Below are positions 23,854-64,000 of a DNA stretch of 64,000 nt, in pieces. The notes under the pieces are model-generated. The model saw only the letters and a program-made list of their open reading frames with translations. It was not told the origin of the DNA and ran no database searches. Both the position numbers and the translations under genes were made by a program. This DNA is from Mixia osmundae IAM 14324 (Eukaryota > Basidiomycota > Mixiomycetes > Mixiales > Mixiaceae). Each line of letters opens with the position of its first letter. Position 1 is the stretch's first letter. The stretch lies in contig NW_014575548.1 of the NCBI RefSeq assembly GCF_000708205.1, forward strand, positions 1-64,000, read 5' to 3'.

Positions 23854-26800
23854 ATGGATCCCACGTCAGAGTACATAGACTACAGGCTGTCGGCTTCGCA
23901 GCGAAGAGCGAGCCAGGCCGGTCGTACTCCACCCAGGACGCCTACGACCGCGACTCCATCACCCCGCCTGAGTCGGTCTGGCAAATCAGCAGACACGAGT
24001 CCAGGTAGCTCGACAAGGACAGAGCCAGCAAGACAGTCGAGTAGATCGCCGGAGAATCTAAAGCGGCCTCCGCAACCGACTCGAGATCTGTCGAGTTCAT
24101 CGAGCAGCTCGTCGCCTTCAGTGAATTATGCCTCTGCTGCTGAGCAGAGCGATACCCAATCCTCGCCTGTGTCGGCAGAGACGAGGAACAAGCCGCGTCT
24201 CTCGGGAAATGGTGTACGGAGTGAAGCAAACACAAGTACGTCATCTATGACAACATCGCCTTCACAAGCGACCGTCAGAGCAGCAGAACGGCGTATGTCA
24301 TCTGCCAGTCGGTCTCAACCTAGCGTCTCCGATCACAATGGAGTATCAAGCACGCCAAGTCCGTCGCAGTCGCGTCAGAGGCAAAGAGCTTCCTTGACTT
24401 CAGATCCAATGAGCTTGTTTCGTGCGCGCTCACCTAGTACCACCGAACGCGATCAGTCCAGAGAGAGCAGCATCGCTTCTCGGCATGTTCGACCACCCAT
24501 GCCTGCTCAAAAGACTTCATCGGACAATGTCGCGAGGACTGTTCAGAGGAGAACTTCAGTCGAGACCATGAATATCTCCCTGGCGCCCCAGACTGGGCCC
24601 ACACCGGCACATACATCTACTGTAGGCTCGGACATGCCCCGGTCACGACAAGTGCCCATCATGACTTCCACTCCTATGCATACCCGTCAGTCTAGTAATG
24701 CACATGCTACCTTGCCGCCAGATGAACGGCTGCCTGTCGAGACAACCTCAGACGTCGATCGTCTGTTCGGTACGACCTCAGCATTCGACAAAGTCCTCCA
24801 GTCAGACCAAGTCATCCACAGATCCAGTCACGAACAGCTCTCACCAACAGCTGGCGCGCCTGCGAGCCTCAGCGGGCCGGCTCCAATAGAGGACAGCCCA
24901 GCTGCTAGCAAACGCACAATGAAGCCCACATCGCTCCTGCTCGCTGCTGCGAGTCGCAAAAAGCAGCAACGAGCAAGCGCGATGAATGGCCCTCCGCCGC
25001 TCGTACTAGGCTCGGCCTTTGTCAACATCGCACCGAGAGGATCCAGGTCGGCAGGAGGTCAGCCGGACTTCGAGTCCATGCTGGCTTCTGACAACACCAT
25101 CAAGCTCAACGAGAGGTCGTCGCTTGAGGGTCGCTTGACCGGCCAAGCATCAGTTGCAGACCTACGATCGGTTTCCAACCCGGAGACTGCTGCTCTCAAG
25201 CCTACGATATCGCGCGAGTCAGCTGCCAGATCGCCTTCTGGTCAATCAGCACCTGCTTCGGCTGTGCAACGGGTAACTTCGAATGGCGAGACATTTGTAG
25301 ACGCAAGTCCATTTCCTGCGACGACCGACGAGCTTCAGACGCCCATCACGCCTAGCGGACGAGCGCCTACAATTCAGTCGCTCTCCTCTAGATCGGTATG
25401 TGCCTTCTCTAGACATGAGCTTCCACCTGATGACACGAGAGCAGCAAACATTCTCCAGCACGATGAGGAAGACATCTGGCTTCTTTCGCAAGGCACTCTC
25501 GAGCTTCAGCGCACCGACAACAACGCCCGGTCGAGTTCGTTGCTCGCTCATGCATCTGCATTCGCGCTCATGTTTGGAACATGCAGAGTGCAGGCATTAG
25601 TTCTGCGGACATGGACATCTACGCGCCCACAAGCAGCGCTGATCTCCCACCTATCGCTCCACCGGTACCTGCAATGCCGGCGCGATATAAGGACGAAGCT
25701 TTGCCTCCTCTACCAGCATTGACCGACGCGCCTAACGCGCCGCCTGCTCTGCCTTCCTCTGCAGCTGCGGGTTCAGCATCGACGCCTGCGCTTGTCTCAC
25801 TGCCCATCGCTGCCGCTATGCAGAGGACTCTGTCGAGTTCCAGTGCAGCATCGGAGATTGTCGGACCTGCGCCTGCATACAAAGGTAGTCCAAAGTCTTC
25901 CGATGTCGCTCGTTTGCGATCTACCTCGAATCACGGCAAGACAGTGATACCGCCGCTGCCACAACGACTGTCATCTGCCGAAACTTCGCCACAGATGCCT
26001 TCGAAAGAACTGCGGCGTCGCTCACTCGGCCTGCCTTCTGAGTCATCTTCGCCTGCGCAAACCACGATTCCCACGGAATCTCTCGCACTAGGCTCCGCAT
26101 TCGTGCAGCAGCAGCTTACCTCGCGTCGGCATCGCCGGCATAGCTCCAATGCTTCTCTCACTGCGCAAGACCTTGATAGGCTCCCCAATTCTTCTACATC
26201 GTCCAACAGATCGACCATTATCTCCAGCTTAGCACGAGGAACAGCATCGCCTACTTTGCCTCCTCGCTCCGCATCACTGACCGGATCTACTTCACTGACA
26301 AGCTCAACACCCACGAAGAGCAATCGCCGTTCCCTCAATAGCATCATTGACGGCGAGTTACTGCCGCCTCTGGGCTTCGAAGACGCGCATGAAACACCCA
26401 TGCCTACAGCTCAGTCGACAACTGCAGGCAGTATCAATGTTCCCAAGGGGCTCGCTCTCAACGTTGATACCTCGGGCGAATTGCCACCGGTGTCGGAGAG
26501 CTCGAGATTGTCTGCTTTGCTCGCTGCAGCATCGGCCGAGGCGCGGCAGACCAGATTGAGCGGTGGCTCGGCCACTCTGCCCTCGCCAATACTTCCGCGC
26601 GAGCTGTCATCGGTGCCAGATTGGGCAGAGGGACATGCGCCAGAAGAGCTGGCGCTCAAATTCTGGAATAACGAAGAGGGATTCCTCAGACCACAAGAGC
26701 GAGCAGAATGGCTCGGTTCATTGTCAGTCGCATGCTATTCATGCTATCTGCTCTAACCGATTTGACACAGACCCTCACTGAATCAGCGCACTTTGCTGGC

Positions 26801-60760: not shown

Positions 60761-61744
60761 TCAGCATGTCGGCTCGTCAGACTGCAAGATATACCGTAGG
60801 CAGATCATGATGTTGTCTGGATTGTCGAGATCGAGAAAAGGTACCATTGCATTCGCGAGATCAGGTCGATCCTTTGCGATTGCGTGCAGCTTGCCTAGGC
60901 GCTCGTGTGTCAGGAAGGTCTGCAAAGCATTGATCGATCTGAGATGATTCGTGATAGCGCCAAACAGTGCCAGTGCATCGACGTTTGAAGGAACTCTTGA
61001 CTGCTCGAACGATGGCGTGTGGGGTATACCCAGTGCGCTGTAGATTTCGATTGCAGGATCGATGCGTTCGATAACGTTTGACTCGGACGGCTGTGCTGCC
61101 ACATTGCGGCAAACAGATACTGCTGACATGTGCGAGGTTCTCGGGCGCTTGGTCGGCCTGGCAATGTATCGTTCAGACTCGTCGCTGCTGATCGAGCCTG
61201 CCGCTTGCACCGCTCCGGACTGCAAAGACTCGTGATGGTGACCCGACGCCGCATCCTCCTCCTGCTGATCGGCGACCTCTTCAGCTACGTCATGCGCCTG
61301 ATGGCGTTGATCTGTCGCCCTCGCGTCGAGTCGAGCTTGCACTTGCATGAAGCGATCTAGCTCTGTCCAGATATGTCTGAAAGTAGAGTTCAGTCCGTTC
61401 TCTTCGACCGCATGCGCATGTTTTCTGAGCACGGCTACTTGCTTCATAGCTTGCTGGTAGTGTTCTCTCGATGGTGCGCCTCTGTCGACGTCGTAGGGGC
61501 AGTAGTGACGAACGGCCTGTACGAAATGCCAGACGGGTTTGAGGTGGCTATTGAGCTTTTTGCGGAGCTTGTCGGCTTTCCATTCAAAGTGCGCATACTG
61601 GGGCTTGCTCGACAGTCTCTGTTCGGCCGTCGTCACTAGGTTTCTGCTGAGGATCGTCGTGCCGGTCTCTTCGGTGAGCTCGGTGACGACGATCAGCAGC
61701 AAGCGTAGCTGTTCGTCTGTCCAGCAGGCCGCTCGACGAGCCAT
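60761..61744 (-). CDS. Myb/SANT-like domain protein
   Basis: Single-exon gene of 327 aa. The first about 90 residues (ARRAACWTDEQLRLLLIVVT to KPVWHFVQAVRHYCPYD) look like the Myb/SANT-like DNA-binding domain common in fungal and plant proteins, some derived from transposon accessory genes. The centre is Gln/His/Glu-rich with a KRPR basic patch (possible nuclear signal), and the C-terminus is helical with no second domain recognised. No transposase or terminal repeats accompany it. The initiator is the first ATG; the gene lies in tandem behind the GTPBP gene with 265 bp between. Role probably in DNA binding, by the fold only. Confidence 0.65.
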   Translation of the reverse strand: MARRAACWTDEQLRLLLIVVTELTEETGTTILSRNLVTTAEQRLSSKPQYAHFEWKADKLRKKLNSHLKPVWHFVQAVRHYCPYDVDRGAPSREHYQQAMKQVAVLRKHAHAVEENGLNSTFRHIWTELDRFMQVQARLDARATDQRHQAHDVAEEVADQQEEDAASGHHHESLQSGAVQAAGSISSDESERYIARPTKRPRTSHMSAVSVCRNVAAQPSESNVIERIDPAIEIYSALGIPHTPSFEQSRVPSNVDALALFGAITNHLRSINALQTFLTHERLGKLHAIAKDRPDLANAMVPFLDLDNPDNIMICLRYILQSDEPTC

Positions 61745-61909
61745 CTAGTCTAGCGTGTCGGTTCACTCATAGCTGACGTTCGATGGGCATCTGAGCGAGG
61801 AGGAGCGAGACAGACGAGCGAGCGAGCGATCGAGCAAGCAGGCGGCGGCGCGCTAGAAAACACGGCTTACCGAATCAGCCAGCCAAGTCAGACGACCGAC
61901 AGACTCAGC

Positions 61910-64000
61910 ATGGCTCGCAACCGACAAGAGTCCACGCCGAGCATGGCATCGCTCTCTTCCTCCATGGCGTCCCTCCTGTCGACGCAGGACTCGCCATCAG
62001 ACAGCTCCAATCAGGGCAGCAACAGTATGGCGTCATCGTCAGCAACCCTCCCATCCGCCTTCAACAGATCCTCCCGACGGAAGCGACGGCTCGCACGTGG
62101 CCTCTCAACAGGTAGAGACACGATAGACGAGGAGGAGGAAGGCATGGGATTGGCATTCTCGACCCAATGTGCCACTGTAGAGAATCCCGACCCGGCACAC
62201 AAAGACCAGTGGAACTCGAGCAGCGTGCCGATCTACCAATCGAGTACCTTCAAAGGCGTCGGCGGCACGTACGACTACTCACGCAGTGGCAATCCTACCA
62301 GAGGCTTTTTGCGTGAGCGAGAGCCTTTTGCCTCACGATTGCGGCAGATTGACGCTTTGAGACTGACTTGCAGAGCATCATGTGGCCAAGATCTCTGGCG
62401 CTCGACACGCTTTCGCTGTAGCATCCGGCATGGGCGCACTGGACGTCATCTTCAGGTTGCTCACGCCGGGTGACGAGATCATCGCTGGCAACGATCTCTA
62501 TGGCGGCTCAAATCGCCTATTGACTTATCTCAAGACACACGGCGGTATCACTGTGCACCACATCGATACTACTCGACCCGAACTGTTGCTGCCCGTGCTG
62601 ACTGCGCACGAGCCGACAGCGCAGACGAGCAAAGTCAAGCTGGTCTTGATCGAATCGCCTACCAATCCTCTCTTGCAAGTTGCAGATATTGCCAAATTGT
62701 CGGACATGATCCACCAGCACGCGCCTGAAGCAATGGTCGTTGTCGATAACACCATGATGAGCCCTTACCTGCAACGTCCGCTAGAACACGGCGCAGATAT
62801 CGTCTATGACAGCGCGACAAAGTATCTATCGGGACATCACGATCTCATGGCAGGCGTCATTGTCTGTGACAGGGACGACATCGCCACTCGCATCGCCTTT
62901 ATGATCAACTCTATCGGCAACGGTCTAGCACCTTTCGATTCCTTTTTGCTCTTGCGAGGCATCAAGACACTTGCTCTCCGACTTGATAGACAGCAAGCGA
63001 CAGCCCAGATCGTAGCCGAGTATCTCGATGCTGCTGGCTTCAAAGTACACTACCCTGGTCTTTCCAATCATCCAGGTCGAGAGATCCACGAGAGGCTCGC
63101 CAAAGGCGCAGGAGCTGTCTTGTCCTTCGAGACAGGCGACAAGGCGCTCAGCGAGCGAATCGTGGGAGCAGCTCGGTTGTGGGGCATTAGTGTCTCTTTC
63201 GGCTGTGTCAATTCGCTCATCAGTATGCCTTGCCTCATGTCTCATGCTTCTATCGATCCAAAGGTCCGTGCGGAGAGGAACTTGCCCGAAGATCTCATTC
63301 GCCTCTGTGTGGGCATCGAGGACACGGACGATCTCATCGACGATCTCGAAGCTGCTCTCCTCGAATCGGGCGCCATCAGACTCCAAGACAATTCGGATGG
63401 TACGACCGATATCGTTCGCAACATGATCACTCCTCCTGCAACACCGTCGAGCAGGGCGAAAGCGATTGGACAAGCGAGCACACAGACCATCGTCGTTTCT
63501 GCACCGGGCAAAGTCATTCTCTTTGGCGAGCATGCCGTCGTTCACGGTATCACTGCCATTGCTGGCTCCGTCGATCTGCGTTGCTTCTGTATGGCTCAGC
63601 CACGCTACGATGGCAAGATTGGTATAACCATGCCGGATGTAGGATTAGACCAAGCATGGGATCTCTCATCCCTGCCTCCAGTAGATCCTTCGCTTGAAGG
63701 CGTACCGGAAGACTCAGTCGATGCTTCCCTGCTAGATTTGATAAGGCAGCATATCGGTCACGACTTAGCGCCAGTCGCACAGAGAGCCGCCGAAGCCTTC
63801 TTGTACCTCTTCCTGCGTCTCAGTCGTTCGGCAACGCGCATTGCTCAGCATCTCACTGTACGGTCCACTCTCCCGATCGGAGCAGGCTTGGGCTCATCTG
63901 CCGCCTTCTCCGTCTGCATAAGCTCAGCGCTTCTCTATACCCATGGCTACTTGCCCCTACCCTCTTCCGAAGGGAAAGACGGTTCGCACGCTGCTGAGAT
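61910..64000 (+). CDS. Cystathionine lyase/synthase fused in frame to mevalonate kinase (partial)
   Basis: Exons 61910-62312 and 62374 to the right edge (open), 676 codons visible. Residues about 75-470 are a complete PLP-dependent Cys/Met-metabolism enzyme of the cystathionine beta-lyase/gamma-synthase type: STFKGVGGTYDYSRSGNPTR, ASGMGALDVIFRLL, SPTNPLLQVADI, VDNTMMSPYLQRP and the PLP lysine in SATKYLSGHHD (about residue 284), ending VGIEDTDDLIDDLEAALL. With no stop, a linker of about 40 residues leads to VSAPGKVILFGEHAVVHG (about residue 510) and LPIGAGLGSSAAFSVC, the two ATP-binding motifs of mevalonate kinase (ERG12). Both halves are in the same frame. A Met at 63423 could start the kinase alone. 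The N-terminus is Ser-rich and then basic. Intron 62313-62373 is GT-AG. Confidence 0.85.

Follow-up and report, generated by a model that had tools for sequence, protein, structure and literature searches.

The fusion of cystathionine beta-lyase (CBL) to mevalonate kinase (MK) is already known, because it was described in two papers of 2012. Liu et al. named it metC-MVK and reported it from 12 basidiomycetes, the exception being Laccaria bicolor, in which it was not found; it was the sole MK and the sole best hit for CBL, its origin was placed in the basidiomycete ancestor, and in some species the MK carried a 16-residue insertion (PMC3342255). A study of how the rice blast fungus makes methionine found STR3 with a C-terminal MK domain in all basidiomycetes examined except Postia placenta, with no stand-alone MK in those examined; STR3 and ERG12 of Ascomycota were described as separate genes that are not clustered (PMC3468542). 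The observation was later repeated for Lignosus (PMC4129116) and Pleurocybella (PMC3720577). As far as their available text goes, both 2012 papers leave the function of the joining open (PMC3342255, PMC3468542), and in the accessible literature text we found neither enzyme assays nor protein gels nor transcripts that document the fusion. A 2D-gel study of Xanthophyllomyces dendrorhous identified MK through four peptides; the available text gives no protein mass that we could find for the spot.

The window that we analyzed, 64,000 bases of Mixia osmundae IAM 14324, carries such a gene on its forward strand. The initial annotation had regarded the pair as a fusion not described before, a claim that falls because of the two reports of 2012. 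The joined protein is widespread among mushrooms, rusts and smuts. The Mixia copy is thus ordinary, and what it contributes to a known fusion is a further genome and a broader survey. Its features are as follows.

61910..62312, + strand: exon 1 (gene model), with the start codon, a low-complexity N-terminal extension of about 95 residues and the beginning of CBL
62313..62373, + strand: predicted intron 1, 61 bp, GTGAGC...CTGAC...CAG
62374..63374, + strand: CBL domain within exon 2; PF01053 at 1.8e-124; TIGR01329 at 531.9 bits against a cut-off of 487.5
63375..63497, + strand: linker, residues 469-509, stop-free, containing a non-conserved ATG at 63423
63498..64000, + strand: in-window part of the MK domain; TIGR00549 at 221.3 bits against a cut-off of 163.05; aligned to 2r3v and 1kvk
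Beyond the window, + strand: exon 2 continues to 64346, followed by predicted introns 64347-64400 and 64555-64602 and a stop codon ending at 64826

The gene ends 826 bases past the window, and we followed it into contig C16 (locus L009). No stop interrupts the exon 2 frame between 62367 and the stop codon that ends at 64382 (671 codons; L009 868-2883). This exon had been taken for the last one, wrongly, since it precedes two more exons beyond the window. The model rests on splice-site reading and homology: three predicted GT...AG introns are removed, and splicing out the first restores the match to the relatives' consensus NPTR..L.HH.AKIS. The predicted product has 917 residues, consisting of CBL, a 41-residue linker and a complete MK, and is identical in every letter to database entry P0001. 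Because the search lists P0001 as a protein of the window itself, this identity shows only that the gene model is consistent and adds no independent evidence. A convergent open frame with a DUF3429 domain lies downstream (L009:3210-4100, - strand).

Most of what the initial annotation had read from the letters survives this fuller model. The frame is uninterrupted from CBL into MK; the linker, put there at about 40 residues, lies inside one exon and shows no stop; and both domains are complete, with MK running to its C-terminus and its motif residues in place. The landmarks lie within a few bases of where that reading had put them. The PLP lysine codon is at 62820-62822 (residue 284), a conserved CBL arginine codon is at 63300-63302, IEDTDDL starts at 63315 (residue 449), the in-frame linker ATG at 63423 corresponds to position 485, and the MK motifs SAPGKVILFGEH and GLGSSAA begin at 63498 and 63885.

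As in metC-MVK, CBL is N-terminal and MK C-terminal in one frame, and the length is similar, about 886 residues on average there versus 917 here; unlike in our set, no Pucciniomycotina genome was found named in the available text of that paper (PMC3342255). The architecture of the basidiomycete STR3-MK protein, and the conclusion that there is no stand-alone MK, are likewise the same (PMC3468542). Ascomycota have orthologous STR3 and ERG12 domains, which presumably catalyze the same reactions, but in separate genes. A bacterial HMG-CoA reductase-MK-IPP isomerase protein (P0309) also holds MK inside a multi-enzyme protein; its partners, however, share one pathway, and its kinase is a distant outgroup in our tree.

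CBL is the STR3 step, converting cystathionine to homocysteine, pyruvate and ammonia. Residues 97-465 of the Mixia protein score above the curated cut-off for eukaryotic CBL, and the closest solved structure is Arabidopsis cystathionine beta-lyase (1ibj), to which homology begins at residue 98. All eight CBL motif residues checked, which we take to be the PLP lysine, the neighbor-subunit Tyr and Arg, the stacking Tyr, an Asp, two Ser and the substrate Arg, are invariant across 165 of 165 aligned fusions. MK is the ERG12 step and phosphorylates mevalonate. Residues 511-840 exceed the curated MK cut-off, and the closest solved structures are the mevalonate kinases 2r3v and 1kvk. The window's protein has all seven MK motif residues, presumably the Lys and His of the first motif, the Ser of GLGSSAA, the active-site Glu and Asp, the Gly of GAGGGG and the Thr of the third motif; six of these sites are invariant in all 165 fusions, and at the remaining site, T741, 151 fusions have T, 13 have G and 1 has A. 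We tried the Trp at residue 913, invariant in 64 aligned sequences, as a fusion-specific mark and rejected it; several stand-alone fungal kinases also have a Trp close to their end.

Searched against the 13.5 Mb assembly, which may be incomplete, the MK half has a single match at E <= 0.001, its own gene. The CBL half gives strong matches to its own exons and weaker ones, at 40-49% identity over parts, in three places elsewhere: on contig C1 residues 116-372 match at 42% and 408-472 at 40%, and on C6 residues 238-292 match at 49%. The paralogue exons on C1 and C4, scored as single exons, fit cystathionine gamma-synthase and BesB models best and fall well below the CBL cut-off, as expected of single exons. 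Family models run over the whole genome gave nine matches for Cys/Met metabolism and five for GHMP kinases. Two loci of 3171 bases, each surrounding a GHMP-kinase match (G000:C8:740416-740586 and G000:C17:117276-117446; L012 and L013), are letter-identical, either a recent duplication or redundant assembly.

One half could in principle be catalytically dead and instead scaffold or regulate its partner; a scaffold role is conceivable given that CBL relatives are oligomers. The invariance of the motif residues of both halves, T741 excepted, and the lack of any other MK match in this genome make this a very improbable reading. We instead consider it highly probable, judging from sequence, that the gene encodes a genuine bifunctional protein, with an N-terminal CBL, a linker and a C-terminal MK, stemming from one ancestral basidiomycete fusion. 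A single event in the ancestor of Basidiomycota would have produced it, the fusion would have taken the place of both stand-alone genes, and each half would be active, catalyzing independently within one polypeptide.

The distribution of the architecture bears directly on this proposal. Of 7992 proteins scored with the 917-residue query, 541 matched at E <= 0.001, and the best 120 of these, the window's own entry included, all contain both domains. A second search shifted to longer proteins (at least 935 residues) returned 82, of which 48 are two-domain and 46 of these new. The MK half alone gave 7848 matches, about 237-754 residues long, and 12 of the best 120 still hold a piece of lyase. Altogether 178 of the 320 collected proteins match both halves. 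For alignment we asked for coverage of at least 340 of 420 lyase and at least 330 of 380 kinase positions. This left 165 fusions, 120 from the 917-residue query and 45 from the longer-protein search; the 13 dropped were the 12 pieces from the MK search and P0273, an almost complete entry from Puccinia (at 338). The initial annotation had looked to a database search for the joined architecture in related basidiomycetes, and such a search yields, among the matches listed, 166 near-complete fusion entries, this gene included, of which 165 were analyzed. Entries should not be equated with species, as some genera or species contribute more than one.

Eight of the two-domain sources looked up span all four basidiomycete subphyla checked: Leucosporidium and Atractiella (Pucciniomycotina), Exobasidium and Malassezia (Ustilaginomycotina), Naganishia, Bartheletia and Dacryopinax (Agaricomycotina), and Wallemia (Wallemiomycotina). 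No non-basidiomycete name was noticed among the named two-domain entries in the matches listed.

We went through seven apparent stand-alone basidiomycete-type kinases among the collected proteins; P0135, P0147 and P0149 were left out of this classification. Three of the seven (P0121, P0128, P0129) begin with lyase remnants, P0122 retains 28 lyase residues, P0127 begins in linker-like sequence, and P0123 and P0183 begin within the kinase; from their sequences all seven look like truncated predictions. For a kinase tree we took 60 domains from the 320 proteins: 30 fusions, five of these apparent stand-alone pieces and 25 others. The 35 basidiomycete-type sequences form one clade (98/95; 99% of 200 bootstrap trees), within which all five pieces fall. 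This clade is sister to five Ascomycota sequences (99/93), themselves on a long branch (1.42); the placement of the long sequences P0303, P0283 and P0279 is unsure. The kinase of this gene lies in an eight-member group with Atractiella and Microbotryomycetes (98/87), that is, within Pucciniomycotina. Our placement beside Ascomycota differs from the earlier view that basidiomycete MK is equally distant from the ascomycete, animal and plant enzymes (PMC3468542); and whereas other fungal MKs were reported there only from Ascomycota, stand-alone MKs are listed here for fungi of the Mucoromycota type, Mortierella and Absidia among them.

These data also speak to the possibility that two adjacent genes were joined in error, through faulty sequencing, assembly or gene modeling. 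Some entries of the family do look merged, for example two from Malassezia with a truncated MET17-like domain. The Mixia linker, however, lies within one exon, so that no splice call is needed to join the halves; the near-complete fusion entries listed include named ones in four subphyla; and the seven apparent stand-alone kinases keep CBL or linker pieces or begin inside the kinase, with all five such pieces placed in the tree grouping with the fusions. Because relatives share the architecture, chance joining is excluded, and we give an artifact of this kind almost no probability. Of the signs named in the initial annotation as speaking against a fusion, two are likewise absent: the linker holds no intron or stop, and the relatives are fused and not split into separate genes.

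The linker itself differs from the domains on either side. Between A468 and S510 its length over the 165 fusions ranges from 37 to 131 residues (median 48), and it is poorly alignable. Strands are predicted in its first half (469-473 and 479-483), just after the last CBL helix, and the second of these includes R483, the one strongly kept linker residue that we noticed in the alignment (160 of 165). An AlphaFold2 model of the 917-residue protein has a mean pLDDT of 78.2 and a pTM of 0.52; the relative placement of the two halves is therefore not fixed by the model. Four stretches fall below a pLDDT of 50: residues 1-94 (the N-terminal extension) and 96-126, both in exon 1; 405-417, which like 96-126 belongs to the CBL half; and the middle of the linker, 487-499. 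The stretch 96-126 includes the motif residues Y123 and R125. Among the best 50 of 1718 Foldseek matches, all are either MK structures or PLP enzymes of the CBL, cystathionine gamma-lyase or methionine gamma-lyase kind. A variable linker between conserved domains agrees with two functional domains connected by a tether and lends no support to a conserved internal start; the linker is fast-evolving and probably flexible.

An alternative is that one transcript gives two polypeptides, either by internal initiation, for instance at the ATG at 63423 as the initial annotation had suggested, or by cleavage. An in-frame ATG is indeed present, and the middle of the linker is variable and of low predicted confidence. 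Against this, the position of that ATG is Met in only 9 of 165 fusions; a Met anywhere in the linker occurs in 73 of 165, none of them conserved; and the strongly kept R483 sits in a predicted strand. Separate polypeptides thus seem quite improbable, and a single bifunctional chain remains our preferred reading.

To our knowledge, the reactions of the two enzymes have no common metabolite, and because none is shared, the benefit of a bifunctional protein, if any, would be obligatory one-to-one co-production rather than the passing of an intermediate. Sterol C-24 methylation requires S-adenosylmethionine, and equal production is a possible benefit in that light. A frozen accident, retained for want of a second copy of either half, would account for the data just as well. 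Closer functional coupling, in which a CBL oligomer would organize the kinase, or the state of the sulfur pathway would tune it, seems to us rather unlikely; it would balance methionine and S-adenosylmethionine with isoprenoid supply, and the fusion would for that reason, and not by accident, have been kept throughout the phylum. The CBL-MK fusion is a natural test of why fusions persist. It joins unrelated pathways and is retained in basidiomycetes of each of the four subphyla checked, and so also marks basidiomycete ancestry.

Co-regulation had also been proposed in the initial annotation, and our promoter scan lends no support to SREBP control of the fusion. The Ganoderma lingzhi MK gene g3941 is a reported SREBP target, and we found no statement in the available text on whether it is the fusion; the SREBP motif published for that basidiomycete, GRVGRVGRVGR, has no exact copy in the 165 bp upstream of the start codon (61745-61909) (PMC9810662). 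Over both strands of the window this motif occurs 53 times versus 14.7 expected, an excess that probably reflects codon-repeat composition with purine-rich triplets; the matches nearest the upstream region of the fusion lie in coding sequence (62126-62142). For ATCACCCCAC, which we assumed as a further motif for the scan, the window contains a single match, itself with one mismatch, at 23958 and thus distant from the fusion gene. A divergent open frame of 327 codons (60761-61744, - strand), with no Pfam match at E <= 0.001, lies 165 bases from the fusion start codon.

Many fusion entries are named solely cystathionine beta-lyase, so that the kinase step is easily missed in annotation; P0048 is named cystathionine beta-lyase/mevalonate kinase. 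MK was the sole enzyme of its pathway that KEGG did not predict in Ustilago maydis (PMC7396576), which may stem from the fusion being annotated as CBL.

Several entries extend beyond the two domains. Twelve listed Ascomycota entries of 980-1060 residues (P0290-P0301; domains rechecked for P0290) combine MK with protein prenyltransferase alpha-subunit repeats, and represent either a second MK fusion or merged neighbors. Two Rhodotorula toruloides entries (P0241 and P0242, 2141 and 2087 residues) run from CBL-MK into a VPS9 domain and are probably merged gene models. In P0279 and P0281, from Malassezia psittaci and M. yamatoensis (1249 and 1210 residues), CBL-MK is followed by an O-acetylhomoserine sulfhydrylase domain whose first 25-50 positions are missing. 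Both entries are most likely merged models of neighboring genes, so that a MET17-like gene would adjoin the fusion.
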